The position numbers were made by a program, and so were the translations under genes. 64,000 bases of DNA, from contig CAMKJU010000009.1 of NCBI GenBank assembly GCA_946413265.1, positions 1 through 64,000 of the forward strand, in the 5' to 3' direction. The notes under the pieces were generated by a model, which saw nothing but the letters and a program-made list of their open reading frames with translations, was not told where the DNA came from and did no database searches. Source of the DNA: an uncultured Lentisphaerota bacterium. Lineage in GTDB: Bacteria > Verrucomicrobiota > Kiritimatiellia > RFP12 > UBA1067. Shown here one piece after another: positions 4,437 to 45,108 of the stretch. The number at the start of each line of letters is the position of its first letter. The first letter of the stretch is position 1.

Positions 4437-4449
4437 ATGCTTTCAAAAC

Positions 4450-5453: not shown

Positions 5454-5503
5454 GCACAAAACGCAAGCGAAACATCGGCGATGAAAAAACTCGCGATTCC
5501 CCC

Positions 5504-5532: not shown

Positions 5533-5553
5533 ATACGCCGCTTTGCAAAAAAA

Positions 5554-5628
5554 GGTCCCGTCGTCTAACGGTTAGGACACCAGGTTTTCATCCTAGTAAC
5601 AGGAGTTCGACTCTCCTCGGGACTGCCA
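5554..5628 (+). tRNA. tRNA-Glu (anticodon UUC)
   Basis: A cloverleaf can be drawn. The acceptor stem GGTCCCG (5554-5560) pairs with CGGGACT (5618-5624), one G-U pair. The D arm is GTC...GAC, the anticodon loop TTTTCAT has UUC in the middle, the T arm is built around GTTCGA, and the CCA end is encoded (5626-5628). One mismatch is seen in the anticodon stem (C28-A42 position), so the stem should be checked. A GGCCGCG hairpin follows at once. Confidence 0.93.
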
Positions 5629-5636
5629 AAGCGAAA

Positions 5637-5661
5637 GGCCGCGACAAGCGCGGCCCCTCCC
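5637..5661. repeat. GGCCGCGACAAGCGCGGCC hairpin, intergenic copy
   Basis: A perfect arm GGCCGCG with loop ACAA and a GCGCGGCC return. It lacks a following U-tract, so it is a poor intrinsic terminator by itself. The same core occurs inside two genes, at 41309-41338 and 49119-49144. Confidence 0.75.
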
Positions 5662-5685
5662 TCTAGATACAATTGTAGGAACTTC

Positions 5686-5790
5686 TTTGCTTTCGCTATT
5701 GGGAGTTTAGGAGATTAGGAGACCTGGAGAAAAACTTCAAAAAGGCTCAATGACTCCGAGACTCCAAAACTCCAAACAGCGAAAGCAATG
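5686..5790. repeat. TTGCTTTCGC-ended inverted repeat, copy 1
   Basis: Begins TTTGCTTTCGCTATTGGGAG and ends CAGCGAAAGCAA. The inner part is rich in GGAG/CTCC steps that also pair, making a hairpin of about 100 bases. Related copies lie at 25120-25285, 47180-47290 and 51609-51765; all four are intergenic. Confidence 0.8.
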
Positions 5791-5831
5791 AACGTGCGTC
5801 ACAGTCATCGAGAGGTCTTGCAATTGCCTCG

Positions 5832-7217: not shown

Positions 7218-7253
7218 AATTTACCTGTCTCTCCTTAAAGTCAAAGCGCAAAC

Positions 7254-7282
7254 AGTATACCACGCATTCCCCGTCCGTGCAA
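7254..7282 (-). promoter_or_regulatory. Consensus promoter of the TPR gene
   Basis: Minus strand: TTGCAC (7282-7277), 17-base spacer ending TGG, TATACT (7259-7254). Predicted start near 7247, giving a leader of about 30 bases with an AGGAG SD. Confidence 0.75.
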
Positions 7283-7299
7283 GGGGATTGCTGATATGA

Positions 7300-7305
7300 T
7301 ATACT
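7300..7305 (+). promoter_or_regulatory. Extended -10 placing the start on the ATG (leaderless)
   Basis: TGATATACT ends at 7305. Counting six bases puts +1 exactly at 7312, the A of the ATG of the next gene. No SD exists. The -35 position overlaps the -35 of the divergent TPR promoter and is weak on this strand. Confidence 0.55.
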
Positions 7306-7311
7306 GTGTCC

Positions 7312-8535: not shown

Positions 8536-8621
8536 CAAGGGCGGAGCGAACCACCCCTACGCCACTTATCGTGACATGCGACGAAGCGGGTTTAGCGCGT
8601 GATATTACGGTGCGGGCAAAT

Positions 8622-8776
8622 AAAAAGCGCCGCCTTGCCGTAGTGCAGGACCTCTGGAACCTCATGTTCCAAGTGGGTGCCCCCAGCGACGGCACGGATG
8701 CCGCCGCCTTTAGGCTCCCGTCATAAAACGAAGGTCAGAGAAATACGCTGCCGAATCCGCGTGCAAGCCAGCGCCC
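8622..8776 (-). ncRNA. Candidate 6S RNA
   Basis: Just after pheT the minus strand can form a long closing stem: GGGCGCTGGCTTGC (8776-8763) pairs with GCAAGGCGGCGC (8638-8627) with one mismatch. It is followed directly by TTTTT, an intrinsic-terminator-like end. Between the arms lies a GGGGCACCCACTTGGAAC step and then GAGGTTCCAGAGG, resembling the CCTTGAAC...GGTTCAAGG hairpin and CGGCGGC end of proteobacterial 6S RNA. Length of about 155 bases fits a short 6S RNA, which binds housekeeping RNA polymerase by mimicking an open promoter. It could instead be a structured 3' UTR of pheT. No strong promoter is visible in the pheT end. Confidence 0.5.
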
Positions 8777-8789
8777 ACGATGTGAAAGA

Positions 8790-11243
8790 TCAACTGTCTC
8801 GGATGTCGACCTGGAGCGTCGCCTTAAGCGCGTCCGTGATCTTCGCGAACGCGCGGTTCACCTCGTCGTCCGTCAGGGTGCGGTCTGCGGCCCTGAACGC
8901 GAGCGAGTAGGCGAACGAACGGCGGTCCTTGCCGATGTCCTTGGACGAGAAGATATCAAAAAGTCGGATATCCGTCAACTCCGGCGGCGCGGCCTTGCGG
9001 ATACACGCGACCACCTGCTCGTGCGTGACGCCCGCGCCCGCGACGAACGCGACGTCGCGTTTGACCATCGGGAACGCCGGCACGGCGCTGACTTTGGCGA
9101 CGGCGTCCACGCGCTTCAGGAGCGGCGCGAGGTCGAGCTCGGCCAGCGCCATCTGCGTGGTGAGGCGGAACGGGTGGCGCAGTTTCGCGGAAAGCACGCC
9201 CAGCACGCCGGCGGGGCGTCCGTTGATGCGGATCTCGAGTGCCGCACCCGGTGCGAAGGCCGGATGGTCGGCGGACTTGAACTCGATCTTGCCCACGTGC
9301 ACGCGGCGCGCAAGCGTCTCGACGGCGCCCTTCATCCAGAGGAGCGCTTCCTCCGCGCTCACGGCGCGGCGGCAGTCAAGCGCGGAACGGCCCACGGGAC
9401 CCGCGAAGCCGAGTGCAAGACGCTCGCATTCGAACGGCTTGCCGTCCTTGTCCTTGCCGAACACGCGGCCCATCTCGAAAAGTTCGGGCTGGTCCACCTG
9501 ATGCGTCGCGTTGCGTCCGAGCGACCCCATCAGCTGCGGCAGAAGCGAATCGCGCAATACGCCGTATTCGGCGGAGACGGGATCGGGCAGCGCGAGACGG
9601 AGAGCCTGCGTCTCCGGACGCGCGTCGAACGCATCGAGTTCACCCTGCGAGAGGAACGAGTAGTGCATCGCCTCGGAGAAACCGAGCGCAAGACACGTGG
9701 CGCGCACTTTCTCCTTCGCGCGGAACGGCGCGTCGGAGAGCGGGGACACGCTCGGGGCGGACGGCATCGTGTCGGGGATGTTGTCCAACCCGTAGACGCG
9801 CGCGATCTCTTCCACGAGGTCGGCTTCGAGCTGGATGTCCCAGCGCCAGGACGGCACGCCGAACGTAGCGGTCTTGGCGGCGGCGTAGAGCTTGCCCGGT
9901 GCGTCGTCGCGGCAAGTGAATCCGAGGTTCTTCAGGATCACGACCATCGCGTCGTTGCCGACCGGAATGCCGATCAGCGCACGCGCGCGGTCGAAGTTGA
10001 TTGTCACGTCGGCATTCAGCGGCTTCGTGCGGTTGTCCACGTCCACCACGCCCTTCGCGACCACGGCCTCGCCGTACTTCTGCAGGAGGTGCGCCGCACG
10101 GCGGCTCGCCCAGTCGGCGAGGTCCTTGTCGACGCCTCGGATGTAACGGTAGCTGGACTCCGTTGCAAGGCCGAGCTTGGTGGCGGTGTACTTTGTGGAA
10201 GTGGGCTCGAAGAGCGCGGATTCAAGCAGCACGTGGTCGGTGCCGGCGGCAATCTCGCTGCCTTCGCCGCCCATCACGCCCGCCACGGCGCTCGGCTTTT
10301 CGGCGTCGCAGATGAGGAGCATCGACTCGTCGAGGTCGCGGTCCTTGCCGTCGAGCGTGCGGATCTTCTCGCCGGGACGCGCATCGCGCACGACGATCGT
10401 CTTGCCCGCGAGCGTGCGGTAGTCGAACGCGTGCATCGGTTGGCCGCACTCGAGCATCACGTAGTTCGTCACGTCCACGAGGAGACCGAGCGACCGGACG
10501 CCGCACGCCTCGAGACGCTTCGCCATGAAATCGGGCGAGGGGCCGTCCTTGACGGACGTGATCACGCGCGCCGTGTAGCGCGGACAACGCACCGCGTCCT
10601 CCACGACCACCTTCACCTCGTCGTTCACGTCGGTAGCGGATTCCGTGAAGTCGATGGGCGGCATCTTGAGCGGACGCCCCAGGATCGCGGAGAACTCGCG
10701 CGCGAGGCCGATCACGCTCAGCGCGTCGGGACGGTTCCAGGTAACTTCAATGTCGAAGACCGTCTCGGGCTTTTCGCAGCCTACCACGTCGCGCACGAAC
10801 GCGCCGACGGGCGTCTCGGGCGGAAGCTCCATGATGCCCGCATGGTCGCCGCCGGGAAGCGCGAGTTCCTTCGAGCTGCAGAGCATGCCGAACGACTCCA
10901 CGCCGCGCAGCTTGCCCTTCTTGATCTTGAACCCGCCGTCCGGCACAACTGCGCCGATCTTCGCAAGAGCGGTCTTGAGTCCCGTGCGGCAGTTCGGCGC
11001 GCCGCACACGATCTGCAGAGTCTCCTTGCCGTCCGTGACCGTGGTCTTGTGGAGGTGCGTGCCTTCGATCACCTCGCAGGTGAGCACTTCGGCGACGACG
11101 AAGAAATCGGAAAGCGGTTCCGGTCCGGACGTCTCAATCGCCTCGACCTGGAGGCCGCTGCGCGTGAGGCGCTCGGCGAGGTCGGCAGGCGGGATGTCGG
11201 AGACGTCAACGTATTCATTCAGCCAACTGAGCGGCAGTTTCAT
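8790..11243 (-). CDS. pheT: Phenylalanyl-tRNA synthetase beta subunit
   Basis: 817 residues, normal length for PheT, which with PheS charges tRNA-Phe in the cytoplasm. Order seen: N-terminal MKLPLSWLNEYVDV, the tRNA-binding OB domain (about 40-150, IVCGAPNCRTGLKTALAKIG), the B3/4 editing domain (about 210-380), B5 (about 400-475), a catalytic-like core (SFLSQGELDAF near 530) and the C-terminal FDX-ACB anticodon-binding domain (FPMVKRDVAFVAGAGVTHEQ near 720-740). pheS is not in the window, which is unusual because pheST are often adjacent. The start overlaps the upstream gene by 29 bases, so it is translated from the same mRNA. A 6S-like RNA follows 13 bases after the stop. Confidence 0.97.
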   Translation of the reverse strand: MKLPLSWLNEYVDVSDIPPADLAERLTRSGLQVEAIETSGPEPLSDFFVVAEVLTCEVIEGTHLHKTTVTDGKETLQIVCGAPNCRTGLKTALAKIGAVVPDGGFKIKKGKLRGVESFGMLCSSKELALPGGDHAGIMELPPETPVGAFVRDVVGCEKPETVFDIEVTWNRPDALSVIGLAREFSAILGRPLKMPPIDFTESATDVNDEVKVVVEDAVRCPRYTARVITSVKDGPSPDFMAKRLEACGVRSLGLLVDVTNYVMLECGQPMHAFDYRTLAGKTIVVRDARPGEKIRTLDGKDRDLDESMLLICDAEKPSAVAGVMGGEGSEIAAGTDHVLLESALFEPTSTKYTATKLGLATESSYRYIRGVDKDLADWASRRAAHLLQKYGEAVVAKGVVDVDNRTKPLNADVTINFDRARALIGIPVGNDAMVVILKNLGFTCRDDAPGKLYAAAKTATFGVPSWRWDIQLEADLVEEIARVYGLDNIPDTMPSAPSVSPLSDAPFRAKEKVRATCLALGFSEAMHYSFLSQGELDAFDARPETQALRLALPDPVSAEYGVLRDSLLPQLMGSLGRNATHQVDQPELFEMGRVFGKDKDGKPFECERLALGFAGPVGRSALDCRRAVSAEEALLWMKGAVETLARRVHVGKIEFKSADHPAFAPGAALEIRINGRPAGVLGVLSAKLRHPFRLTTQMALAELDLAPLLKRVDAVAKVSAVPAFPMVKRDVAFVAGAGVTHEQVVACIRKAAPPELTDIRLFDIFSSKDIGKDRRSFAYSLAFRAADRTLTDDEVNRAFAKITDALKATLQVDIRDS

Positions 11244-12855
11244 CTTGCTTCACTTCTTCTTTAGGTTCTTCGGCAATGGGGGCGGGGGCGGCGGGCGGGT
11301 CGCCCGCCGCGTCATTTGCGGACGGGACGTCCGCCACCCCGACTGCAGGGGCGTCCGCCACGTCCTTTTGTGGGGCAGGGGCAGGTGCCGCGTCTTTTGC
11401 GGGGGTGGTGCCCTTCGGCTGGCGGTAGAGAGGATGTTCCGCGGGGGCCGTGAGCGCGCCGTTCGCGTAGGCCACCACATAACCCTTTTCAATGAGCCAT
11501 GTGAGATGTGCGCGTATCTCGGCGGTCTTCGTCTTGTCTTCGCCGGCGAGGGCTGTGAGGAGCGCCGCCTGCGTCGAGCAGGGATTCGCCTCCACGTAGT
11601 TCACTATCGCAGTCAGTTCGGCGATGGCGTGTGACGTATCGAGCTTCGTCGGCTGCGCGGCGCTCACGAATTCAGGACCGCGCGGATCGTTCGCGCGGAA
11701 GAACGCGAGCTTGCGGTGGTGGAACGCGCCACGCAGCGCGTAGAACAACGACGCCGGGAAACGCTTCTCGCGCTGGAGCGCGTCGCGGCAGGCGTAGAGC
11801 AACGGCTTCGAAGACGTCTTCAGCGCCACGTCGGCCGTCATGTCCACGCTCTTCGGCGCGGTAAGCAGACTCGGCGCGATCATGCTGCGAAACTCACGCT
11901 CGGCGACCTCGCGTTCCACGGCAGGGGCATCCGGCTCGCCCTTCTTCTTGTAGACCGTCTTCTTCGTGGCGGACGCGCGCCACTGCTCGATCACGTCGGA
12001 GTCGCGCACCATCTCGATGCGGGCACGGTACGCCTGCTCGCTCATGTCCGGGAAGTGCGTGCGCAGCATCTCGCGGATGCGCGCGTCGTAGCCGTGCAGG
12101 TTCGGCGGACCGAGCAGCTCGCCGGTCAGACCGCACTTCGCCACGCACGTGAATGCGCCCTTCGGCGGATCGCAGGTGACTTCCTCTGCGACGTAGTAGT
12201 CGGTGATGTGGGCGGTGAGGACGTGCGCGAGAAGTTCCTCCTCGGAAAACATGACCGCGCCGCACGCTTTGCATTGGTGGAAGTTGAGGTCGGCCGGCGC
12301 TTCGCCCGCCTTCGGTTTCTTCGGGCTGATGCGCAGGATGCACGCCTCGGGATGGTCGAGGAAGAAATAGGCGAGCTGCTTGAGCGGGTAGGCGAGGTGC
12401 GTGGCCTTGATCTTGTTGATGATCGTGCCAATGTCCTTCGGCGCGGGCAGGATGCGCACGTCGGCGTCGAGCGGCGCGATGAACTCGCGGCGCGGGCCGC
12501 CGAAGCGTGGACGATCCCCGTCACGGCGCTGACCGTTGAAGCGCGGGCGGTCGCCGTCCTCGCGGCGCGGCGGACGGTCGCCGTCGCGGCGCGGACCGTT
12601 GAAACGCGGACGGTCGCCCTCTTCGCGACGCGGGCCCTTGAAGCGCGGACGATCCCCGTCGTCGCGGCGCGGGCCGTTGAAGTGCGGGCGGTCGCCGTCG
12701 CGGCGCGGCGCGCGTTCTTCGCGGCCCTCAAAATGGGCGTAGCGCGACTTGTCGTCGGGCTTGCCCTTCGCCCAGTCGGGGGTGAAGTCAAAGGAACCGA
12801 GACCGCTGAGATCGACCTGGTTCTCTGGTTCCTGTTCTTTGTTTTCGTCTGCCAT
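11215..12855 (-). CDS. Arg-rich repeat protein with C2H2-type zinc finger
   Basis: 546 residues from MADENKEQ, chosen over an upstream TTG because AAAGG sits at a proper distance. Residues about 48-120 are tandem, Arg/Asp/Pro-rich repeats of roughly 13 residues (GPRRDDGDRPRF type), like RNA-binding RGG-type tails. A CX2C...HX4H finger (CKACGAVMFSEEELLAHVLTAH near 205) follows. A winged-helix-like part lies around 430-490, and an Ala/Pro-rich tail, part of which may be repeat-derived (GC-rich inverted repeats at 11290-11335), ends the protein. No named family recognised. Sharing an mRNA and a 29-base overlap with pheT suggests a translation- or RNA-related role, by inference only. Confidence 0.75.
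   Translation of the reverse strand: MADENKEQEPENQVDLSGLGSFDFTPDWAKGKPDDKSRYAHFEGREERAPRRDGDRPHFNGPRRDDGDRPRFKGPRREEGDRPRFNGPRRDGDRPPRREDGDRPRFNGQRRDGDRPRFGGPRREFIAPLDADVRILPAPKDIGTIINKIKATHLAYPLKQLAYFFLDHPEACILRISPKKPKAGEAPADLNFHQCKACGAVMFSEEELLAHVLTAHITDYYVAEEVTCDPPKGAFTCVAKCGLTGELLGPPNLHGYDARIREMLRTHFPDMSEQAYRARIEMVRDSDVIEQWRASATKKTVYKKKGEPDAPAVEREVAEREFRSMIAPSLLTAPKSVDMTADVALKTSSKPLLYACRDALQREKRFPASLFYALRGAFHHRKLAFFRANDPRGPEFVSAAQPTKLDTSHAIAELTAIVNYVEANPCSTQAALLTALAGEDKTKTAEIRAHLTWLIEKGYVVAYANGALTAPAEHPLYRQPKGTTPAKDAAPAPAPQKDVADAPAVGVADVPSANDAAGDPPAAPAPIAEEPKEEVKQDETAAQLAE
11290..11335. repeat. GC-rich inverted repeats inside the zinc-finger protein gene
   Basis: Two neighbouring palindromes, GGCGGGCGGGTCGCCCGCC and GCGGACGGGACGTCCGC, encode part of the Ala/Pro/Asp tail. 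They resemble the other intragenic palindromes of the window but lack the GGTAGGG head, so membership of that family is uncertain. Confidence 0.4.
12510..12720. repeat. Intragenic tandem repeat encoding GPRRDDGDRPRF-type units
   Basis: About five to six imperfect tandem units of 30-39 bases, all in frame, encode the Arg/Asp/Pro-rich region of the zinc-finger protein. Variation in unit length in whole codons suggests slippage under reading-frame selection. Confidence 0.8.
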
Positions 12856-15511: not shown

Positions 15512-16873
15512 TTACGCCGGTTCGACGATGGGCATGTCGATGTTGCGCTTCTTCGGGTTGAAGTTGATGCCGATGAGCGTGACGGGGCGCTTGCCGCCGA
15601 TCCACTTGTCGGCGTAGCCGCGTTCGCGGATCTGCCTGATCGCCGCCTTCGCGCTCTTGCGGTACTTGAACTCGAACACGAACACGTTGGCCGGAGTCTC
15701 GATCACCGCGTCGGCGTAGCCGAAGATAGATGCCACCTCGGGCTGCGGGTTTGCACCTGTCATGGACGTGAACAGCTGGAAATACCGCTTCGCCTCTGCC
15801 TCGTCCTTGATATGCCAATCAACCGGGATGGAGGCGTACAGTCCAAAAAGAGATTCGTAGAGATAGCCCTTCCAGTCGCCCGAGGCGATCAGTCGCCTGG
15901 CCCGCTCCACAAGCGGATTGAAGGAGCCCTCCCTCATGCCCATCACCTGCGAGAGATATCCGCGCTTCAAGGCATCGCGCACCTCGAGGTTCGGCGGCGC
16001 GAGGACATAAGATTCGCTTTGGGTTATCTGTCCATCGGGTTCCCTGGGCGGCGGAATCACGTTCTTGATCGTGAGGTAACCGCCCTGGTAGAGCAGGGCC
16101 TCCATCGGCAGCGTCTCCGCGTCGCACACGTCGAGCGTCATGGCGTCCGCCGGCACGTTCTCGAGGTCGCCCGGCATCTTGCCGGCCTTCGCAATGCGGT
16201 TGATGATGAGCGTCGCCCTGCCGGTTGTCTCCCAATAGCCTTTCAGCTCTCCATCCTTGAACGCACGGCCCAGGGAGACGGGATTGCAGACGCGGTTCTC
16301 ATTCCTCGGGGAAAAACGATAGCCGTCATACCATGACAGGATCGCGGCCTTCGCGGCGGCAAAGTCCATTCCGCTTTTCTCGCCGAACGCCTCGACGTTC
16401 TCGCGGAGTGGCCCGTCAAGTTCCTTCGGTGAGTAACCGAGGAGCGTAGCGTACTCCTTGAACTTACCCGGAATCGTGCCTTTTTCGGGGACGGGGATGC
16501 CCGCCTGCTGGAACAGGTCTTCGACAAGTTCGCCCAGCTGTTCCTTGACCTCTTCGTAATTTTCGCCGGTCACGTCGCCCATCGTGAAGCTGTACACGGG
16601 CGTCGGCTGCTTCCATCCTTCCCACGGCAGTTTGTCGATGGCGAGGCCCTTGAAGAGATCGCGCCGTCCCTCGAACATCGCCTTCAACGTGGAGAGCATC
16701 AGGGACTTGCCGAACCTGCGCGGGCGCGAGATGAACAGCTGCTGGTCCGCGTCGTTGCAAATTTCATAGAGCAGGTCCGTCTTGTCGACGTACTTCCCCT
16801 TCTTGCTCGTGACCAGCGTCTCGAAGTCGCACACGCCGGTCGTGGGGACTTTTATGGTCTTCTTCTTCGGCAT
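15512..16873 (-). CDS. AAA-ATPase-like protein with C-terminal PD-(D/E)XK nuclease domain
   Basis: 453 residues, cytoplasmic. The N-terminus matches the AAA-ATPase_like family (Pfam PF09820) common in gut bacteria: FETLVTSKKGKYVDKTDLLYEI near 18-39 and a degenerate Walker-A-like ISRPRRFGKSLMLSTLKAMF near 48-67. The C-terminus has the PDDEXK_9 pattern: ADAVIETPANVFVFEFKYRKSAKAA near 402-426, with the D...ExK catalytic trio. Family function is not established; a DNA-repair, defence or transposon-related nuclease is often suggested. Its promoter (16880-16909) puts +1 on the ATG. Convergent or overlapping neighbours are absent; it stands alone. Confidence 0.85.
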   Translation of the reverse strand: MPKKKTIKVPTTGVCDFETLVTSKKGKYVDKTDLLYEICNDADQQLFISRPRRFGKSLMLSTLKAMFEGRRDLFKGLAIDKLPWEGWKQPTPVYSFTMGDVTGENYEEVKEQLGELVEDLFQQAGIPVPEKGTIPGKFKEYATLLGYSPKELDGPLRENVEAFGEKSGMDFAAAKAAILSWYDGYRFSPRNENRVCNPVSLGRAFKDGELKGYWETTGRATLIINRIAKAGKMPGDLENVPADAMTLDVCDAETLPMEALLYQGGYLTIKNVIPPPREPDGQITQSESYVLAPPNLEVRDALKRGYLSQVMGMREGSFNPLVERARRLIASGDWKGYLYESLFGLYASIPVDWHIKDEAEAKRYFQLFTSMTGANPQPEVASIFGYADAVIETPANVFVFEFKYRKSAKAAIRQIRERGYADKWIGGKRPVTLIGINFNPKKRNIDMPIVEPA

Positions 16874-36045: not shown

Positions 36046-36076
36046 TCCTTTTGCTCTCCTTGAGAAAATCGGTGAG

Positions 36077-36082
36077 ATTATA
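36077..36082 (-). promoter_or_regulatory. Extended -10 of the ETF:quinone oxidoreductase gene
   Basis: Minus strand: TGTTATAAT, +1 near 36070, leader of about 25 bases with AAGGAGAGC. The -35 is weak. This box excludes the longer reading frame that begins at 36156. Confidence 0.6.
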
Positions 36083-36098
36083 ACATAGCTCCAGCGTT

Positions 36099-36974
36099 TC
36101 AGGCCAATGATTTTGCCTTGCGCCAGCCCGTAACGGTGAACGCGCCCGACGGCCAAATCGCGCCCTCTGCGTAGCTGCTGGACGCCGGTGCCGGACCTTC
36201 CACCATGGCACGCAGCGTGTAGTAGGGGATTCCGTTCACCTTGCTGTGACCGCCGTTGTGCTGATGACCCGTGACGACCGCGCGCACCTTCCCGCTCGCC
36301 TCCAGCACCTTTCGCACGGCCTCCGCGTTCTTCATGAGGTGGTGCTTCTCGGATGCCGGGTCAAGCCGCTGGTGGACGAACACCACGGCATGCTTCCCCG
36401 CCGAGGCAAGCTCGCGTTCCAGCCAGGCAAGCTGCTCCGGCGGAATGTTGGCGTCCGTCCATGGATTGCTCCTGGAGTAGTGCTTCATCTTGCCCGTGAA
36501 ACACCCGTCGAGGACGATGAACGAGACGCCGCCGTATGCAAACGAATACCAGCCCTTGTCCATGACCTTGCCGCCGTTCGGCGTCCGCGCGAGGAATTCC
36601 GCCGGCGTGATGCAGTCGCAGTCGTGGTTGCCGACCACGTGGTAGCGAGGACCATTGAACCGGGCAAACGCCTTTTCGACCTCCTCTAGGCGCTTGATGG
36701 TTTCGTCGTGGCCGTTGGAGTTGTCCTTGAAGTCCCCCAGCTCGATGGCGAAATCAGGCTTGCGCACGTTGAACAGATCCACGGCCTCGTCGAGCTTGCG
36801 CACCGAATCGCCGTAGTGCCGATGTCCCAGCGGCTTCAGCGCGGCGTAGTGCAGGTCCGTCACCATGCCGAAACGTACGAGGGGACGCCCCTTCGGCGCC
36901 TCCTCGCCATACAGCCGGACGCCCGTGAACAGCATCGTACCACCTGCGGCGCAAATGAATTCTCGTCTCGTCAT
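36099..36974 (-). CDS. Exported calcineurin-like metallophosphoesterase
   Basis: 291 residues. A short Tat-like signal (MTRREFICAAGGTMLFTG) leads to the metallophosphoesterase motifs in order: DLHY near 41, GDFKD near 80, GNHDCD near 117, VHQRLD near 201 and TGHQHNGGH near 236. It should bind two metals and cut phosphomono- or diesters outside the cytoplasm; substrate is not readable. It lies between the ETF:quinone oxidoreductase and the chimeric etf fragment. A second, longer phosphoesterase occurs at 49217-50683. Confidence 0.9.
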   Translation of the reverse strand: MTRREFICAAGGTMLFTGVRLYGEEAPKGRPLVRFGMVTDLHYAALKPLGHRHYGDSVRKLDEAVDLFNVRKPDFAIELGDFKDNSNGHDETIKRLEEVEKAFARFNGPRYHVVGNHDCDCITPAEFLARTPNGGKVMDKGWYSFAYGGVSFIVLDGCFTGKMKHYSRSNPWTDANIPPEQLAWLERELASAGKHAVVFVHQRLDPASEKHHLMKNAEAVRKVLEASGKVRAVVTGHQHNGGHSKVNGIPYYTLRAMVEGPAPASSSYAEGAIWPSGAFTVTGWRKAKSLA

Positions 36975-36984
36975 GTTACTTCCT

Positions 36985-37131
36985 CAACTGTACACAAGGC
37001 CTTGCCCGTCTGACCCACCTGACGCATCCCGGAACACCCGGCGTCCACGCACAGTCGTGAACAGCGGCACAATGGCCGTCGCGAGGCCTCCCGGCCCCAC
37101 ACCGATAATAAGAACATCTGTGCTGATCATA
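36985..37131 (-). pseudogene. Chimeric fragment: 5' end of ETF:quinone oxidoreductase joined to internal etfA
   Basis: The first 21 or so codons (MISTDVLIIGVGPGGLATAI) copy the start of the ETF:quinone oxidoreductase, including the SD region. After about 37070 the DNA instead matches the inside of etfA near 45300-45365; read in the shifted frame it gives [16 protein letters not shown], the conserved ETF-alpha VDAG...RQVGQTGK motif. A stop follows. An extended -10 (TGATATACT at 37170-37162) still stands in front. It is a decayed relic of two fused genes. It could still make a peptide of about 48 residues, but no folded product is likely. Confidence 0.7.
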
Positions 37132-37161
37132 CGCTCCATCTTCTCCTTCAAGGCGGCTAAT

Positions 37162-37170
37162 AGTATATCA
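37162..37170 (-). promoter_or_regulatory. Residual extended -10 before the chimeric fragment
   Basis: Minus strand TGATATACT with a weak -35 (TGCCGC). It overlaps the end of the 37174-37995 gene region and would only read the fragment and then the phosphoesterase. Confidence 0.4.
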
Positions 37171-37173
37171 CAT

Positions 37174-37995
37174 TCACGGCGCGTGCGGCAGAGGTATGTA
37201 TCCGCCCATCTTTGAATGTTCGCGTTTCTGGTTTGGGGATGGAACCGCTTGTGTTCTACGCACGTTACTTGTCTCGTCTTGGCATCCCGCACCGAAGAAA
37301 CGCCCCTCCTCTTTCGGCGACAGGCGGGCACGCTCCGTGAAGAGGCAGCGGAACGCTGATCTGTCTTCTGCGTCCTTCATCGTTGCAAGATATCTTGACA
37401 TCGGCTTCGCAAAGCAAAACGCTACTGCGTTCCTGTGTTTCTTGACGGCGCTATTCCACCGATCAATACTGTCGTATTTCCGCCGAAGTGCCAGCAGATT
37501 CGGCGTCCGAGGATAGGCGGTGTAAACTATCGGTGCCGCAATTGCGCCAGAGGCTATCAACGCCTCGTCCTTTTGCCGTGCCTCTTTGATCTCTTCAGCC
37601 CGACCGTCCACGGAGATTTCTCTTTCATCGGCCAGATAGTCCGCGAGTTTGAGGAAATATACATTGGTCTGCGCGATCTGGTCACAACCTACGGCATACC
37701 ACATGAGGTTTTCCATGGCATGGAAACGAGCGCTAGGCGCATCGTCGCAGTACTTGATTCGTAATTGTGACAGATGGTCTGCCACCATGAGCAAGACGGT
37801 GTCCCGCGTCTTTGCGTCATTGAAACTACCGTCGGTGACCGCCTTGTCAAAAAGTGGCGTTAGTGCCTGTTGGCATTCAAGCACATCTCGGCTCGCCACG
37901 GCATCCCTAAACGCCGCAAGCAACTCATTCCCGTCTGCAAGGCTGGCGATGGCAGACATTGCCGCCATCAACGCGACCCCGAAACGCAATCTCAT
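37174..37995 (-). CDS. Secreted protein of a local paralogous family
   Basis: 273 residues if MRLRFGVALMAAMSAIASLADG is the true start (Sec signal about 1-20); an ATG 13 codons upstream (38034) is also open, but the signal argues for the inner one. The body has paired helices (LLAAFRDAVASRDVLECQQAL; ARFHAMENLMWYAVGC) like those of the two lipoproteins upstream at 38080-39528. The last 25 or so codons are basic and proline-rich and may be a frame extension into the next promoter. No named family recognised. Confidence 0.6.
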   Translation of the reverse strand: MRLRFGVALMAAMSAIASLADGNELLAAFRDAVASRDVLECQQALTPLFDKAVTDGSFNDAKTRDTVLLMVADHLSQLRIKYCDDAPSARFHAMENLMWYAVGCDQIAQTNVYFLKLADYLADEREISVDGRAEEIKEARQKDEALIASGAIAAPIVYTAYPRTPNLLALRRKYDSIDRWNSAVKKHRNAVAFCFAKPMSRYLATMKDAEDRSAFRCLFTERARLSPKEEGRFFGAGCQDETSNVRRTQAVPSPNQKREHSKMGGYIPLPHAP

Positions 37996-38079
37996 GGGCT
38001 TCAACCCATTATCTTTGAATGTTCGTGACATCATTAGTCCCTCGTATGTTTACCATGTATGTACTCAAACTGCACGGCC

Positions 38080-38796
38080 TCATTTTGCCTCATCCTTTTC
38101 AATTTCCGGAGGCAAAGTTCCAAATACTTCTTTGATCATCTTCCGAACGTCACTAAGTTGTGATGGCGACATTCTGCGCTTTGCCGAAGGATACCACCCT
38201 CTTTCTATTATGCAAAAGCAATTCTGAACGCCATCTCTTAAGTCATTAAAAAGCGCGTCCTTACGAAATTTCGTGGCGGGCACCCCTTTTGCCTCTAGGC
38301 GGGCGGCTCGCATTTCCAATGCCTTTTTGTACTTGTACGATGCCTTTAAAAAGAAATCCCAAGCGCCAGGCGTCATAGAATCTAAGTAACACAGCATTGA
38401 AAATCCACATTCGATCAGTTCATAATATGCCGAAAGATTTCTATCTATAAGCCGAGATGCGTCTTCGTCGTCTAGTGCGGCATCAATGAGGAATTCGAGA
38501 TTTAATACGGCATTAGTATAACTCGATACATAACACCTACGCACCAAAGGATCATCAATCCTACAAATGTTTTCTGTAATATTGCTCATTACGATCTGCC
38601 GTGCTTCCCATTGGCGAGAACAATTTAGCAAGTTCGGCAATTGCTCTATTGCGTACTGGATTTTGTAAGCCACGGTTTCTTGTTGGCTGTCATTAGCATT
38701 CGATGTTTTTCCCTGCCGCTCACAGCCCATAAGCAGCAATACAGCACAGGTCAAAAAGGTTAAAGTAGTTCGACGGTTCTTTGCTTTGAATTTCAT
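38080..38796 (-). CDS. Lipoprotein of a local paralogous family
   Basis: 238 residues with a lipoprotein signal (LTFLTCAVLLLMGC, Cys near 25). Helix-rich body; the AYYELIECGFSMLCYLDS stretch near 123-140 corresponds to AMENLMWYAVGC in the downstream secreted protein and to AFRNYELLIDAS in the neighbour at 38866. DNA here is clearly more A/T-rich than the flanks, suggesting recent acquisition. GGGAGAATAC precedes the start. No known family; likely anchored in the outer or inner membrane leaflet facing the periplasm. Confidence 0.7.
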   Translation of the reverse strand: MKFKAKNRRTTLTFLTCAVLLLMGCERQGKTSNANDSQQETVAYKIQYAIEQLPNLLNCSRQWEARQIVMSNITENICRIDDPLVRRCYVSSYTNAVLNLEFLIDAALDDEDASRLIDRNLSAYYELIECGFSMLCYLDSMTPGAWDFFLKASYKYKKALEMRAARLEAKGVPATKFRKDALFNDLRDGVQNCFCIIERGWYPSAKRRMSPSQLSDVRKMIKEVFGTLPPEIEKDEAK

Positions 38797-38865
38797 CTTT
38801 GTATTCTCCCTAATCGGTCTTGACCTCCTCCTTCGCGCATCCGCGCAAGCTGTCGTACAGTGGCT

Positions 38866-39528
38866 TCATTTCGCCTCCTTCATTTCGTATGCGGCGTCGA
38901 GCTGGCGGCGCCAATGTTCATGGCGATCCGGGGGCAGCCCATGTGCTTTCATCCACGGGAAATAGTCGCGCTCGATGCGGTTGGTGAAAACCATGAAATA
39001 CGAATTCAGACAGCCGTGGATGTTCTTCATGGGCGTACGCGCCCTTCGGTTCGGCTCATTCTTTATGGCATCGGACCACTTCTTGACCTCTCGTCTGTGC
39101 AAGTGTACGCACTCGCAAATAATTCCCAGTACACGTTCCGTAATTTCCGGCTCTTTAGCTAATATGGTGCTCGCGTCTATCAAGAGTTCGTAGTTTCGAA
39201 ATGCATGAGATGCATCCTGACGTACATTCAGAGCAGACACAAGATGCGACATCGCATCAAGGCACTTGTTAATGAGACGGAACCTTTCATCTCGGTCGTC
39301 AAGCGCCATTATGGAATTAGCCAGATCAATGCCCCAGTGCATAGTACTCCACCCCTTCCCCTCAAGTTTCTGCGGCATGTTCGTTATCTCACACTCGATT
39401 GCAATCACGCGTTCGTCGCTTTTCGAATTCGGAGCGAAATCCTGCTGTACCTGATTCGTGCCGGTCGTTTCATCACGACATCCTGCGCATGTGACCAACG
39501 CAAGTAAGACTACGATAATCGTTTTCAT
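38866..39528 (-). CDS. Lipoprotein of a local paralogous family
   Basis: 220 residues with a lipoprotein signal (MKTIIVVLLALVTCAGC, Cys near 17) and a strong SD (AAAGGAGG). The helical body with LINKCLDAMSHLVSALN and AFRNYELLIDAS is related in layout to the next two genes. It starts 21 bases after the large surface protein, so it belongs to that run. AT-rich like its neighbour. Function unknown. Confidence 0.7.
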   Translation of the reverse strand: MKTIIVVLLALVTCAGCRDETTGTNQVQQDFAPNSKSDERVIAIECEITNMPQKLEGKGWSTMHWGIDLANSIMALDDRDERFRLINKCLDAMSHLVSALNVRQDASHAFRNYELLIDASTILAKEPEITERVLGIICECVHLHRREVKKWSDAIKNEPNRRARTPMKNIHGCLNSYFMVFTNRIERDYFPWMKAHGLPPDRHEHWRRQLDAAYEMKEAK

Positions 39529-39549
39529 ATCATACCTCCTTTAACTATC

Positions 39550-42201
39550 CTATCGCGGTCTCAGCGGTACAATTTCTCCATTGAGCCGAACGACTGAATT
39601 CGTGTTTCTCTGCACGACTTTGCCAAGTTTTTCAACCTCAAGCGTTCCGTCAGATGCCATTCTGAACCGTTGCCAGTACATGGCGAATTGCTTGACTGGT
39701 GTATCCTCTTCGCTCGAACCTGTTTCGTTCCAGCCTACGGGAATCATCCAGTTCATAGAGCCAACGATCCATCCACACGACCAGTTGTCAGTAATATCGC
39801 CGTCCGGCGTCATGCGCGGAAGTTGATCTCCCATTTCGGCATAGTCGTACATGAATCGATTGCCCACCTGGATATCGTGCCACACGCCGGCCCCAATGTT
39901 CGTAGTATGAGACCACGCGAAATCGAAGTATTCGTTAGCGAAATACCCTTGAGGATCCTTGTAGTCTGTCGGTACTTCTTGGACGGCTATTCCCATAAAT
40001 GAAACATTGGTCGGAAGAACCACCAGTTCAAGCTCCATACCAGCACCTCCTGCGACATTCGTCGGAACACCGTAGTCGAAGGCTTCGGCAGACTTGGCGA
40101 CGACAGACTGCGGTTCCACCACTTCCAATTCAAGCGAATACCTGGTACCATGGCAGACGACCGTCAAATATGGAGAAGCGCCTGCCGTCAGCGGAGCGGT
40201 GTACTCCCTCTTATCGTTTTTCATGCCAATTTGTCCACCCGTACCAGCATCCCAAGTCACTACAGCATCCGGTGGCATCCATGAGCATTTCACCGATTCC
40301 CTAACACCCAGACGATGCCTGTGCTCATAATCGCCAATTCGGTAATTCGGCGTCAACTCCAACTTCACCGCCGTAGCTGAAGCAGTTTCACTGGTGATAC
40401 CTCCGCCGTCACCTGGCATTATATAAGCCGTGACGGTAATGTCGCCTTCCGAATCGCTGTGAGTTTCCGCCTGGTATTCAATTGAGAACGACACGGCGCT
40501 CTGCGGCGGGACGAATGCCGTGTATGGGAAAGAGATCGCCTTTCCGCCAACGCGGACAAGCTTCCTGATTTTCTGCTCCGAGATGTAAAGCATACTACCA
40601 GCCTCGCCACCGTATGCGAAAACGGTAAGCGTCGTGTTCGTTGAATGCTTGGCAACTACATCATTCGGCGCGTTCGTGTAGGCGTCCTCATAAAACACGA
40701 CTGGATTGTCGAACGACACGAAAACGGACGGCCCGTTAGTAGCATATTGCCCGTTTCCTGAATTACCCGAACCGTGACGCCAACATCCGCACCAGACATG
40801 CGGAAGGTCGAACGACACATCCTCAAGCATGGCAACGCCCGAAACAGAACAGCCACCACATTCGCAACTCCAAACGTTGCAACTGAACCCGATCCATCCG
40901 CCATCCGTCATGTAGCTGCACGTCGCGGATCGCGTCGGTGCTTGCCACTGGAATTCGCATCCGGGATCGTAAGGCCCCGCGCTGACACTATATCCCATGC
41001 CATCCGGTACAACCGTAAACTCCAATGGCCATTGCACGACGTAGTTGGAAACGCAGTTGGTCGTGATCGTGGCGAAGCCATCATCGGGAAGCGAGACGGA
41101 GAAAGGCACGGTGGAGGTAATGGCATAGCTGACGCCGATCAAAAGCGGCACGTGGTTCGTCTCGCCTCCACGCGCAACCACGACGGGATTGCCGAGGCGC
41201 GAGTCGCAGTCGCCGGCAAAGTAGATCGGAGCAGGGCCGTTCGACGCAACGACATCCACGAAGTAGTATGCGTTGGAGTTCACGCCCTCTAACCACACCA
41301 ATTCCAGCGGGAGGGCCGCGCTTGTCGCGGCCACCTCCAGCACATTTGAACACAAAACATTGTACCATTCCGCGTTAGTGCCGTGCGCATCCGGCCCCGC
41401 CACAAGCGGATCGGGATCGACAGAATTCTCCAGTCCGTCATTATCCCAGTCGAACGGAAACACCGGCGCGTAGTCAACCACGCGGTCGTCGTAGCGATAG
41501 GAAAAATGACCGCCCGCGAAGAACTCCGCCTGGAAATTCGTGAGGCAGCTGACGTCGTAGTTAACAGGCGCGTTCTCCCATGCGACGACGAGCGAGTTGG
41601 ATGGCGTAGCCGCATGCCAGAACACATTGGAAACTCCGCCAGGCAGTAGATGCCAGTTGAACGCAGGCACGACCGCGAGCGGCGCGTCGAAGGGACGCGG
41701 AAAGTACGGAGTGCGCAGCGCAAGACGAATCTCTCCGTCCGAGAACACCGTTAGACCGTCCGTGAAACCATTGTGCCATGGGAAGGACCAGCCGTCTGCG
41801 GATATGCGCATAAAGTCATCGAAGCCGCCGCGCACAAGCCACGGTTCGTGAATCGTGTATGTCCCGTCCTGTGGCCGCGACGGAGCGCGGCCCTCCCGCA
41901 TCGCCGCCACGCGCCAGCCGTTGGAAATGTCTGTAGGCGTAACGGCCAGCATCGGCGATGCCGCTCTCCTCGGCGGGTCGTTCATGTGCTTGCTGAAGCT
42001 TTCGACAATCCCCATCACCACCATCGCCACAGCAAGTGCGGCGCGTACAATACCCCCGCCAAACAGTCTGCGCAGTGGCACCGCAACTGTTTTCGCCAGC
42101 CACGCAATCGCAGTTGCGGATAGCAAGATGGCAAGAAGCGTAAGCGACACGTAGCACACGATGCCGCGAAACACTTCCGCAAATGTCTGAGCGTCTTGCA
42201 T
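39550..42201 (-). CDS. Large membrane-anchored surface-type protein
   Basis: 883 residues. Two hydrophobic segments near the N-terminus (about 16-35 and 50-65) anchor it; the rest is beta-rich and extracytoplasmic. A calcium-loop-like DWDNDGLENSVDPDP near 250-264 is followed by a VPLLIGVSYAIT region. Cys-rich CSYMTDGGWIGFSCNVWSCECGG lies near 428-450, and further beta modules run to the end. No family I can name. Two palindromic repeats are translated (about 100-110, AMREGRAPSRP, and about 288-297, VAATSAALP). The gene follows the secreted 191-residue protein by three bases (TGA CGG ATG). Confidence 0.65.
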   Translation of the reverse strand: MQDAQTFAEVFRGIVCYVSLTLLAILLSATAIAWLAKTVAVPLRRLFGGGIVRAALAVAMVVMGIVESFSKHMNDPPRRAASPMLAVTPTDISNGWRVAAMREGRAPSRPQDGTYTIHEPWLVRGGFDDFMRISADGWSFPWHNGFTDGLTVFSDGEIRLALRTPYFPRPFDAPLAVVPAFNWHLLPGGVSNVFWHAATPSNSLVVAWENAPVNYDVSCLTNFQAEFFAGGHFSYRYDDRVVDYAPVFPFDWDNDGLENSVDPDPLVAGPDAHGTNAEWYNVLCSNVLEVAATSAALPLELVWLEGVNSNAYYFVDVVASNGPAPIYFAGDCDSRLGNPVVVARGGETNHVPLLIGVSYAITSTVPFSVSLPDDGFATITTNCVSNYVVQWPLEFTVVPDGMGYSVSAGPYDPGCEFQWQAPTRSATCSYMTDGGWIGFSCNVWSCECGGCSVSGVAMLEDVSFDLPHVWCGCWRHGSGNSGNGQYATNGPSVFVSFDNPVVFYEDAYTNAPNDVVAKHSTNTTLTVFAYGGEAGSMLYISEQKIRKLVRVGGKAISFPYTAFVPPQSAVSFSIEYQAETHSDSEGDITVTAYIMPGDGGGITSETASATAVKLELTPNYRIGDYEHRHRLGVRESVKCSWMPPDAVVTWDAGTGGQIGMKNDKREYTAPLTAGASPYLTVVCHGTRYSLELEVVEPQSVVAKSAEAFDYGVPTNVAGGAGMELELVVLPTNVSFMGIAVQEVPTDYKDPQGYFANEYFDFAWSHTTNIGAGVWHDIQVGNRFMYDYAEMGDQLPRMTPDGDITDNWSCGWIVGSMNWMIPVGWNETGSSEEDTPVKQFAMYWQRFRMASDGTLEVEKLGKVVQRNTNSVVRLNGEIVPLRPR
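41309..41338. repeat. GGCCGCGACAAGCGCGGCC palindrome inside the surface protein gene
   Basis: GGGAGGGCCGCGCTTGTCGC GGCC..., the same core as at 5637-5661 and 49119-49144, translated in frame as part of VAATSAALP. Confidence 0.8.
41871..41903. repeat. GGCCGCGACGGAGCGCGGCC palindrome inside the surface protein gene
   Basis: The hairpin GGCCGCG-ACGGA-GCGCGGCC plus CCTCCCGCATC tail encodes AMREGRAPSRP. It looks like a cousin of the GGCCGCGACAAG family with another loop. Confidence 0.65.
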
Positions 42202-42204
42202 CCG

Positions 42205-42780
42205 TCACCTTAGCTTCAGAAGCGTCCCATCGATTGCGGCCTTGACCTCCCCCATGCCACCATCTACGCCCGCACCGCGCACGATGACGCATGCGATATT
42301 CCAGTCCGGCTCGTAGAGCCATCCCGGCGGAACAGATGCAACTTCGGAGAATAACGGCGTGCCGTCAACAGTCGCCGAAAGACGCGACGGAACTCGCCCG
42401 CCCCTTAACCGGAGCGCCCATTTGAAATCTCTCGTGACGCCTTCCGACGGCTGCGCGGACTGCACCACCGTTTCCCCTTCCGCTCCGCGCATGAACCATG
42501 CGCCGCGATCCCATCCCGCCTCCATGCGCCGTTCGTCTGGCGAAAGACTACCGTTGCCGTCAATATCTGAACCGAAAGCCACCTCAACGTTGTTCGACGC
42601 GGCGGGCGTAAACGAAAGGGAAAACAAAAGTACGCCGGAAGCGGGCAGCGCGGACAGCGCGACGTTCGTACAAGCTCCAGCATCCACCCACTTCGGCTGA
42701 GGCAGCGGCGTCGCCTGTGCGGTAAAAACCGAAGCCAGAACGAGCAACAACCGTGCAACAATTCGCGGGAAAGACTTCAC
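42205..42780 (-). CDS. Secreted protein with EF-hand/dockerin-like calcium loop
   Basis: 191 residues from the GTG start in VKSFPRIVARLLLVLASVF (Sec signal about 1-25), preceded by AGAGGAAAC; upstream codons overlap the methyltransferase gene. The main recognisable motif is SDIDGNGSLSPDERR near 87-101, a DxDxNG calcium loop. The rest is beta-rich. The start overlaps the methyltransferase stop by four bases (GTGA), and its stop is three bases before the large surface protein. So a defence-type pair and two envelope proteins are read as one coupled unit. Function unknown. Confidence 0.65.
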   Translation of the reverse strand: MKSFPRIVARLLLVLASVFTAQATPLPQPKWVDAGACTNVALSALPASGVLLFSLSFTPAASNNVEVAFGSDIDGNGSLSPDERRMEAGWDRGAWFMRGAEGETVVQSAQPSEGVTRDFKWALRLRGGRVPSRLSATVDGTPLFSEVASVPPGWLYEPDWNIACVIVRGAGVDGGMGEVKAAIDGTLLKLR

Positions 42781-43907
42781 CGTTTCCTCTTGATGATGAT
42801 GCGGGAGTAGGGGCACTTCGGCTTGCCATCAACCGTATAGGCGATGTCCGTGCGGCCGCGAAAGTTCTTCTTCACGCCAATCTGCTTCGCCAAGTCTCCA
42901 GAACCAATCCCGATGATTTCAAACTGGTCGGGGTTGTATTTGTCGAGGAAAGTATCGGGGACCCCCATCAAGCCGTCGTAATCACACGGGATGTCGGATG
43001 TTTTGCTCACGTCAATCGCATCGAAATTGTCATACTTTGGATATTCATCCGGCGTATAGTGCTTCAACAAAACAAGCTCGTCATGCCGTTCCTTGTAGTC
43101 AAGATTGGTGAACCATCTGGGGCCACGTACCCTCACATACTTGTTTCCTTTTTCATCATATCGATAATGTTGTGAAGCGTTATATTCCTGAGGAACACGA
43201 AACTCTCTGTCACCGTTATGAATGCTTGCGCCAAGCCATATTTCGTTGCGCATAATCAATGGAAACACCTCTTTGTAGTGTAACGCCGTTTGGTTCCCAA
43301 TGATGAGGAACTTTTTCTTGTACTGTACGAGTTGCGCGACGTATTCACGGAAGAGGGAGAACGGCGGATTGGTGACGACGACATCGGCTTCCTTGAGGAG
43401 TTCGACGCATTCGGGCGAGCGGAAGTCGCCGTTGCCGTTGAGGCGGGTGAGGACGTTCTTGCGGTTCTTGATGAGGTATTCGACGTCGGCGATGTCAACC
43501 GTGCCGTCACCGTTCTCGTCGCCGACTTCGGTGATAACGATCTTGTAGGCGCGTCGTTCGTGGCGAGGTTTGGGATCGTTCGGCGCGCTCGGCGAGCGCG
43601 CCCTACCACCTCTGCGACTCTGCGTCTCTGCGTTAAACTCTTCCCCGAAGAGGTCCAGCTGCGTGTAGGCGACGGGAGAGCCATCGTAGCAGGTGGCGAT
43701 GAGCTTCTTCAGTCCGAGGTCGTTGAAGCGCGATGCGAAGTAGTAGAAGAAGTTGCTTTCGTAGGGGTCGTCGCAGTTGCAGAGCACAGTCTTTCCCTTG
43801 AAAAAGCGCGTGTAGTGCTTCAGCTCCGCCTCGATGTCGCAGAGCTGCGTGTAGAACTCGTCCTTCTTCGCGTTCTTCGCGTCACCCAATGACTTGTTTC
43901 CGGCCAT
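42777..43907 (-). CDS. EcoRI-family adenine-specific DNA methyltransferase
   Basis: 376 residues from MAGNKSLGDAKNAKKDEFYTQ, chosen because an upstream 25-codon extension runs into the preceding gene and lacks an SD. It matches the EcoRI_methylase family: KDEFYTQLCDIEAEL near 15-29, NCDDPYESNFFYYFA near 44-58, the catalytic DVVVTNPPFS near 150-159 (NPPF for N6-adenine methylation) and a C-terminal GVKKNFRGRTDIAY region. It would protect a DNA site by m6A. Residues about 82-109 (NAETQSRRGGRARSPSAPND) come from two repeat families. It follows the DUF262-HNH gene with one base between stop and start. Confidence 0.85.
   Translation of the reverse strand: MAGNKSLGDAKNAKKDEFYTQLCDIEAELKHYTRFFKGKTVLCNCDDPYESNFFYYFASRFNDLGLKKLIATCYDGSPVAYTQLDLFGEEFNAETQSRRGGRARSPSAPNDPKPRHERRAYKIVITEVGDENGDGTVDIADVEYLIKNRKNVLTRLNGNGDFRSPECVELLKEADVVVTNPPFSLFREYVAQLVQYKKKFLIIGNQTALHYKEVFPLIMRNEIWLGASIHNGDREFRVPQEYNASQHYRYDEKGNKYVRVRGPRWFTNLDYKERHDELVLLKHYTPDEYPKYDNFDAIDVSKTSDIPCDYDGLMGVPDTFLDKYNPDQFEIIGIGSGDLAKQIGVKKNFRGRTDIAYTVDGKPKCPYSRIIIKRKR
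43582..43640. repeat. Palindrome plus CGCAGAG block inside the methyltransferase gene
   Basis: A CGCGCTCGGCGAGCGCG hairpin ending CCCTACC (43582-43607), of the GGTAGGG family, lies next to a 33-base ACGCAGAGACGCAGAG block (43608-43640) of the kind seen at 25120 and 51609. The two different families have been joined at one site, in frame. Confidence 0.85.
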
Positions 43908-43908
43908 G

Positions 43909-45090
43909 TCACCACACCCCTCCCTTGGCGAGGTTGTGGGCGGCGCAGAGCATGCGGCCGTTCTCAATCTCCGTCTTGCCACCGAGATGCCACGGCTTGA
44001 CGTGGTCGGCGTGCATTTCCGAAATGTCGTAAGTCCGCTTCACGCCCTCCTTCACACATTCGGGACAACGCCCCTTCTGCCGTTCGTACATCGTCTGCTT
44101 CTGCCAGTCCTCGAACTGGCGGAGGTTCAGGTGGCTTTGCCGTCCGTCGAAGATGTATTCGTAGATGCCGCTCTTGTCCTTCACCTCGTCGTCGGCATAG
44201 AGTTCCGCCACACGGCGCTGAATGGCGTCGAGGTCGAATTCCTTCTCGTGGTACTGGTTGTAGAGAATGCCCCACTCGACCTTCTCCATGCCCTTGCGGT
44301 AGGTGGGGAAGAGACGCTTCGTCCAGGCGATGACGTCTTGGAAATACTGCCAGATAGATGCGGCGTCGGCGTCTTCCTTGTGGGCGGACATGAACGCCTC
44401 CAGCTTCTCCGTGTCGCGCAGATCGCCGATGAACCAACGGAGCGCCTTTTCAAGCCCGCCCTGCCGGTTCCACGTGTTGGCCGCCGGGAGTGTGATGTAA
44501 ATCTGTGGCTTGGTCGCTGAAAGGCGCTGGGCTGGCGAGTTGGTCCGCGAGAAGTACCGCTTGAGGTCTGTCACCCACGGGCCGGAATACTGCGCGTTGC
44601 GGATTTCCTGCCCGCTCAGACGTTCGCCCGCGATGTTGATCGTCTCGAACCAACGGAGGCGGTCGGTATCCGCGCCCTCGCAGACGTAGACGAGCAGATT
44701 ATAGTTGAGAATGCGCTCCTTCTCCTTGGGCAAAAGCTGGCTGAACGTACGAGCATGGGGGTTGCCGAATAGACCGGGAATGGAGTAGCCGCGCGCGGGA
44801 TCGTCGATGCTCACGAAAGTACAGAGCGAAATGGTACGCTGTTGTCCGTCTAGAATCTCAAAGTTGCCATCCTCGTTCTTCACCCAGTACATGATACCGA
44901 GGGGAAAGTCCTTGGAGACGGTGTCGATGACGGCGTTGCGCTTCGCGTCGTCGTAGATGTAGTTGCGCTGGTATTTCGGGCGGATGTCAAGGCGTCCGCC
45001 GTATCCGTGGATTCCTTCCTCTCGATCAGAGTTGTCCTCGTATCCAGCGACGACCTCGCGCACGGTCACTTTCAGCGGCCTTATGTCCAT
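43909..45090 (-). CDS. DUF262-HNH nuclease, GmrSD-like
   Basis: 393 residues, cytoplasmic. The N-terminal DUF262 domain has [20 protein letters not shown] near 37-56 and the [11 protein letters not shown] motif near 78-88, the DGQQR hallmark of GmrS-like nucleotide-dependent nucleases. A helical middle is followed by a C-terminal HNH endonuclease: CPEC near 347, [12 protein letters not shown] near 362-373, [10 protein letters not shown] near 380-389. This DUF262 plus HNH order is that of Type IV and some Type II-like restriction enzymes. Next to a same-strand adenine methyltransferase it forms a likely restriction-modification pair. The start is 18 bases after etfA; no promoter is seen between. 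Confidence 0.88.
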
Positions 45091-45108
45091 GCCCTGTTCC
45101 TCGCTTGT

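Follow-up and report, generated by a model that had tools for sequence, protein, structure and literature searches.

EcoRI restriction–modification (R-M) couples a methylase of the PF13651 family to R.EcoRI, a PD-(D/E)XK nuclease, in a two-gene layout carried on small plasmids, and in Type II pairs the endonuclease and the methylase differ in their recognition mechanism (PMC4081073). In the Type III enzymes EcoP1I and EcoP15I, the Res subunits are nearly identical, and the target-recognition domains (TRDs) of the Mod methylases differ (PMC8259958). Type III Res combines an SF2 helicase with a PD-(D/E)XK nuclease, and Mod is a beta-class methylase. GmrSD, BrxU and SspE share a DUF262-DUF1524 architecture, in which a DUF262 domain with a DGQQR motif is combined with a C-terminal His-Me finger nuclease. 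LlaJI is an McrBC-derived R-M system, a Type IV-like machine that has been made methylase-protected and acts on unmodified sites (PMC12707154).

The pair of genes described here, located in a window of 64,000 nucleotides (the whole stretch of DNA analysed), resembles EcoRI in its methylase family, layout and carriage on small plasmids, but its nuclease is a DUF262-HNH protein, the usual order is methylase then nuclease, and two methylase blocks that are frozen in EcoRI systems exchange freely. As in Type III systems, a near-constant nuclease accompanies methylases whose putative recognition segments differ, and a nucleotide-dependent effector would be expected; however, we found no sequence relation to Type III, with PF13651 standing in place of a beta-class Mod and DUF262-HNH in place of Res. 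The nuclease is like GmrSD, BrxU and SspE, which are among its best fold matches, in having a DGQQR-bearing DUF262 domain followed at the C terminus by a His-Me finger nuclease, whereas it differs from them in its PF01844 HNH domain, its compact size (360–390 aa) and its nearly constant association with one methylase family, a near-obligate linkage that argues against a GmrSD-like Type IV action on modified DNA with no need of a cognate methylase. LlaJI, a parallel as a Type IV-like machine under methylase protection, differs in its McrB/McrC parts, a B3 DNA-binding domain of its own and two methylases.

Both proteins are already known to annotation resources. The window nuclease and methylase give full-length matches of about 402 bits each to the PADLOC models REase_II (PDLC03418) and MTase_II (PDLC03297), respectively, which file them as Type II R-M in line with the separate, adjacent genes, and on plasmids the pair is annotated in RefSeq; although the original prediction saw in it a candidate new defence module, the pair is not of an undetected kind. 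The PADLOC assignment is a type label only, with no architecture, block exchange or tested specificity, and we found no published account of a DUF262-HNH/EcoRI-methylase pair in the open-access literature searched. What is new, judging from sequence comparison, is that the methylase contains two modular blocks that are exchanged independently while the nuclease stays constant. These swappable blocks, and the atypical gene order of the window copy, had been missed by the original prediction.

The two genes had been placed one base apart on the same strand, and their positions are confirmed (Table 1); the genome holds one copy of each. In Pfam profile searches, nuclease residues 36–168 matched GmrSD_N/DUF262 (PF03235, E 7.9e-19, 69 bits) and residues 342–389 matched HNH (PF01844, E 4.7e-8), with no match to DUF1524 (PF07510) up to E 0.001. 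The GmrSD-like architecture proposed earlier is therefore correct for DUF262 with DGQQR and for a C-terminal HNH, but the latter is a plain HNH (PF01844), where GmrSD has DUF1524. Across 28 aligned nucleases, the DGQQR motif (D81-G-Q-Q-R85), whose role in the window nuclease is assigned by homology to GmrS, BrxU and SspE (PMC10952713), is invariant, as are the HNH-domain residues D362-H363, N377, N386 and C342/C345/C382. An AlphaFold model of the nuclease (pLDDT 86) predicts a DUF262/ParB-Srx-like N-domain, a helical middle and an HNH domain. The predicted N-domain matches BrxU at Z 7.6, which at Z < 8 would be weak without the PF03235 sequence match; the DUF262 fold matches SspE (6jiv) at Z 6.6 and 3.3 Å over 122 residues, also Z < 8, and the HNH domain matches 5h0m, 4h9d and 6ghc at Z about 7 each, all these scores below 8 being counted only jointly with the sequence evidence.

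The neighbouring gene was correctly recognised as an EcoRI-family m6A methylase, matching PF13651 at 482 bits over its full length (Pfam search, cut-off 26.4). Its mechanically called open reading frame begins at GTG 43982, but alignment to relatives puts the real start at ATG 43907, which gives the one-base gap to the nuclease stop. The catalytic NPPF motif is invariant in 32/32 aligned methylases. In the AlphaFold model (pLDDT 82), residues 93–115 have pLDDT <50, and an in-frame insertion consisting of a CGCAGAG repeat and a 21-bp palindrome lies in this predicted disordered loop; the CGCAGAG repeat is dispersed over about 30 sites in the genome. A sequence search for a solved structure of this methylase gave no match, and a fold search with the model returned nothing significant (best E 0.026). 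The methylase loop also contains QLDLF (43647–43661), which resembles a beta-clamp-binding motif; we dropped this motif as evidence, as it is found in a minority of the family and DLF-containing variants occur in both partner classes, including some EcoRI-partnered methylases.

Table 1 Features of the nuclease–methylase pair and its surroundings, in window positions.
Feature	Position	Strand	Basis
DUF262-HNH nuclease, P0002, 393 aa	43909..45090	(-)	Pfam GmrSD_N + HNH
DGQQR motif, nuclease residues D81-R85, putative NTP pocket of DUF262	44836..44850	(-)	Alignment, homology
HNH nuclease domain, residues 342-389	43924..44067	(-)	PF01844, alignment, fold matches
EcoRI-family adenine-N6 DNA methyltransferase, P0001, 376 aa	42777..43907	(-)	PF13651, PADLOC, AlphaFold
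Methylase catalytic motif NPPF, residues 180-183	43359..43370	(-)	32-sequence alignment
Methylase block 1, residues ~211-270, putative target-recognition segment	43098..43277	(-)	Exchange analysis
Methylase block 2, residues ~331-368, putative target-recognition segment	42804..42917	(-)	Cassette types
In-frame dispersed-repeat insertion, methylase residues 92-119	43551..43634	(-)	Sequence, pLDDT
~9 kb insertion that separates etfA from the ETF-QO gene, with the pair and downstream genes	36046..45108	(-)	Relatives
Secreted-looking ~200-aa (203 aa) protein directly downstream of the pair	42205..42816	(-)	Multi-copy in genus
883-aa protein downstream of the 203-aa protein	39550..42201	(-)	Multi-copy in genus

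Many bacteria, one archaeon, plasmids and phages carry the pair, so that the absence of co-occurrence that would have refuted the original prediction is not borne out. Among 289 genomes of the phylum, the nuclease is present in 32 (E<=1e-20), the methylase in 38 and both in 31, an association far beyond chance. A one-genome-per-species scan found at least 80 nuclease loci (the 80 analysed being picked by similarity to the window nuclease) in Bacillota, Bacteroidota, Patescibacteria, Spirochaetota, Campylobacterota, Pseudomonadota, Acidobacteriota, Planctomycetota, a Pacearchaeota archaeon and others. The nuclease was also found in 42 plasmid records at >=80% coverage, some of 7.5–17 kb, and the pair on a few phages or viral contigs. 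The methylase lies upstream on the same strand in 114 of 120 nuclease loci, nearly always directly adjacent and most commonly with a 4-base overlap; the six exceptions are four contig edges, locus L153, where the methylase is 8 kb off, and locus L081, which is without one. No third conserved gene was found beside the pair, the largest flanking family occurring at 6 of 88 loci. The module is very widespread and strictly consists of two genes.

That a GmrSD-type protein should adjoin a modifying enzyme is, as the original prediction remarked, a real puzzle. One solution would be a Type IV nuclease that stands by chance beside the methylase and adds restriction of modified phage DNA, as its DUF262 homology might suggest. 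TgvAB and BrxU play such a complementary part within Type I and BREX loci. Embedded GmrSD genes in R-M loci have likewise been described (PMC11411939). We consider this solution highly improbable here, given that the nuclease is almost never found without an EcoRI-family methylase and has no other restriction gene regularly nearby, whereas tgvAB occurs mostly alone, that it lacks DUF1524, and that its divergence is tightly coupled to that of the methylase core.

The partners of related methylases point to a different role. Two of the three full-length methylases in the phylum without a DUF262-HNH neighbour adjoin an R.EcoRI homologue (55% identical), and plasmid methylases likewise have R.EcoRI as an alternative partner. 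Because R.EcoRI homologues stand there in related methylase loci, the DUF262-HNH protein, on this comparison of gene neighbourhoods, occupies a restriction enzyme's place. With both proteins filed as Type II by PADLOC and the nuclease replaceable by R.EcoRI, a cutter kept in check by a guard methylase is more probable than a Type IV enzyme. Of the two options originally offered, the one favoured, since R.EcoRI fills the slot, is that the nuclease cuts unmodified sites and the methylase protects against it, and sensing of the m6A state becomes the main rival. A maximum-likelihood tree groups the seven methylases partnered with R.EcoRI, the classical one included, in a single clade (SH-aLRT 100) among DUF262-partnered methylases, a result that holds with core columns alone; the root of this tree is not established, so that a derived status of the R.EcoRI branch is presumptive.

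Comparison of the methylases revealed two segments that depart from the rest of the protein. Methylases 68–93% identical to each other differ at about 80% of positions within residues 331–360, and this block 2 falls into 47 discrete cassette types among 101 methylases, with types recurring on divergent backbones. Pairwise identities of block 1 and block 2 are independent given the core (partial r 0.05). All seven R.EcoRI-partnered methylases have one type of each block, with identities of 75% in block 1, 75% in block 2 and 70% in the core, whereas DUF262-partnered methylases at equal core identity average 35% in block 1 and 14% in block 2. Because they are discrete, recurring types that are exchanged, and are frozen only in the company of R.EcoRI, the two independently exchanged blocks look like target-recognition domains. 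A search near the pairs for silent methylase cassettes, as in a shufflon, found none.

The nuclease, by contrast, follows the methylase core and not its blocks. Nuclease divergence correlates with that of the core at r=0.778, where permutations reached at most 0.216. For block 1 (r=0.110, permutation maximum 0.131) and block 2 (r=0.097, permutation maximum 0.106) there is no correlation beyond chance level, and after controlling for the core the partial coefficients are -0.05 and -0.03, respectively. Among system pairs with nucleases >=85% identical, a block had changed in 34 of 39, representing 14 independent clusters, and nucleases up to 99% identical are paired with methylases of different blocks. 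For example, the nucleases of loci L117 and L120, which come from rumen Bacteroidales, show only four differences (Y30F, N183S, N204S and D357E; 97.9% identity of the nuclease-region DNA), whereas their methylases are 98% identical over residues 120–210, 47% in block 1 and 27% in block 2. In principle, a handful of substitutions could give a nuclease a new target; no nuclease columns tracking block type were found, and the windowed excess was at most 0.05. As its divergence tracks the core rather than the blocks, and as the blocks swap under near-identical nucleases and are frozen with R.EcoRI, the nuclease probably has no sequence specificity of its own and is lent it by the methylase.

These observations weigh on a conventional Type II reading, in which the nuclease would have one fixed site, common to most or all of the family, and the blocks would be not recognition domains but, for example, surfaces diversifying against inhibitors. 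It agrees with the PADLOC models and with R.EcoRI holding the same slot, but is hard to reconcile with blocks that are discrete types on divergent backbones, frozen only with an R.EcoRI partner. Genome G313, of the same genus as the window, holds four further pairs, each with its own block-2 type, a set that constant specificity would make redundant, and the missing covariation of the nuclease with the methylase blocks argues against independent site recognition. We regard the conventional reading as distinctly unlikely.

The reading we lean towards, with slightly better than even confidence, is a two-gene R-M module with Type III-like logic assembled from non-homologous parts, in which the methylase steers the DUF262-HNH nuclease. 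The EcoRI-family methylase would recognise its target through the two exchangeable blocks and mark host DNA with m6A, while the DUF262-HNH protein would serve as a common effector without a matching sequence specificity of its own. The methylase would direct this effector either as a physical complex or by being bound at unmodified sites that the nuclease reads; the DUF262 domain, on the model of GmrS, BrxU and SspE, would probably act as a gate that depends on binding or hydrolysing nucleotides, and the HNH domain would cut unmodified DNA, possibly in defence against phages. To the wider proposal, that the EcoRI-family methylase is the specificity subunit of a DUF262-HNH effector in a Type III-like system of independent origin, and that classical EcoRI is a sister or derived branch whose self-specific nuclease froze the blocks, we assign an even chance.

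Nuclease constancy under block exchange would be equally well accounted for if the DUF262 domain read the presence or absence of m6A whatever the sequence, such that one nuclease could serve any methylase. DUF262 proteins of known function (GmrSD, BrxU and SspE) sense DNA modification, and BrxU and SspE are among the best structural matches of the nuclease model. SspE, for its part, reads phosphorothioate. A generic reader would, however, be led astray by Dam and other widespread m6A, the co-divergence of nuclease and methylase core (r=0.78) suggests a specific protein partnership, and replaceability by R.EcoRI implies an enzyme directed against unmodified DNA; we hold an m6A sensor to be unlikely, though not negligibly so. 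Methylase-guarded cutting has difficulties as well: genomes G280 and G015 have an open nuclease gene next to a methylase whose frame a stop or frameshift interrupts, and together with L081 these nucleases without an intact methylase sit badly with a nuclease that is toxic without its guard, most genomes compared being draft metagenome assemblies, in which an assembly error is possible.

Individual EcoRI-type blocks also occur with the DUF262-HNH nuclease: block 2 alone in L017, L087, L147 and L148, and an EcoRI-like block 1 alone in L098 and L106. L135, likewise DUF262-partnered, has both EcoRI-type blocks (76% and 94% identical to M.EcoRI) on a core whose nearest relatives are other DUF262-partnered methylases. 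From these blocks we predict that the L135 methylase would mark GAATTC while partnered with DUF262-HNH. When genomes that have the pair were set against genomes that lack it, neither whole-genome counts nor Markov O/E gave a signal of GAATTC avoidance, a comparison that is uninformative because the true EcoRI hosts G200 and G255 show none either. A 5-versus-5 hint of avoidance in one genus was gone once more genomes were added.

If steering by the methylase is correct, the textbook M.EcoRI family would be mainly not Type II, its usual partner being a methylase-steered nuclease, and the Type II label in annotation pipelines would be corrected. Specificity would be reprogrammable by swapping two short blocks (about 30–60 residues each), with dozens of natural block types available for decoding, and there would be a concrete route for a self-specific Type II system to arise from, or give rise to, one with shared specificity.

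The window copy is the sole one with nuclease-before-methylase order among the copies examined, and no intact relative found exceeds 52% identity to its nuclease. The window methylase shares 68% identity with that of L021, whose nuclease is just 45% identical to that of the window; block 1 is of a type near L017 (73%), and block 2 of a type common to L035, L132, L134, L120, L010 and L126. Reversed order, a distant nuclease and the repeat insertion in the methylase would all suit a decaying or non-functional relic, as would broken fragments 83–93% identical to the window nuclease in G084, a genome of the same genus, and such a relic would be compatible with every other reading. Nevertheless, both frames are open, all family-invariant residues, the catalytic motifs included, are kept, and the repeat sits in a predicted disordered loop, and we judge decay to be a lesser but appreciable possibility.

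In five related genomes, one with a 95% identical EtfA, the genes that flank the insertion, etfA and etfQO, lie side by side, and all genes of the insertion run in the same direction as the etfBA-etfQO operon. The 203-aa and 883-aa proteins had no match in a Pfam search; their genes have 1–10 and 1–12 matches per genome in the genus, many at contig ends, and adjoin the DUF262-HNH pair in several independent copies (G313 C56, C344 and C309; G084 C168; G321 C236). Together they may form a mobile or hotspot cassette specific to the genus. Elsewhere in the window, positions 15512–16873 encode an AAA-ATPase_like + PDDEXK_9 protein.

Several variant arrangements were seen at other loci. In L153 (G046), positions 2224–12037 hold a defence-like gene block between methylase and nuclease, with genes resembling by eye a nucleotidyltransferase, a membrane protein, a PLD-type nuclease and a C5 methylase, the last with an N-terminus that resembles the start of DUF262-HNH. 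Antirepressor-like, Fic-like or RelE-like genes, again by eye, sometimes lie at the methylase–nuclease junction (L114, L135, L116, L117, L120, L099 and L081); in L081 only a RhuM-like gene is left and the methylase is missing. On a Variovorax plasmid (L166, 4968–8805), one DUF262-HNH nuclease adjoins two methylases that differ in block type. An EcoRI-family methylase is also present in the Mycobacterium phages Norz, Marchy and Hami1 (L162, 2983–4059); in Norz it is solitary and possibly anti-restriction. Flavobacterium phage vB_FspS_laban6-1 (L178, 3998–6360) carries a complete methylase/DUF262-HNH pair beside its tail tape measure gene.
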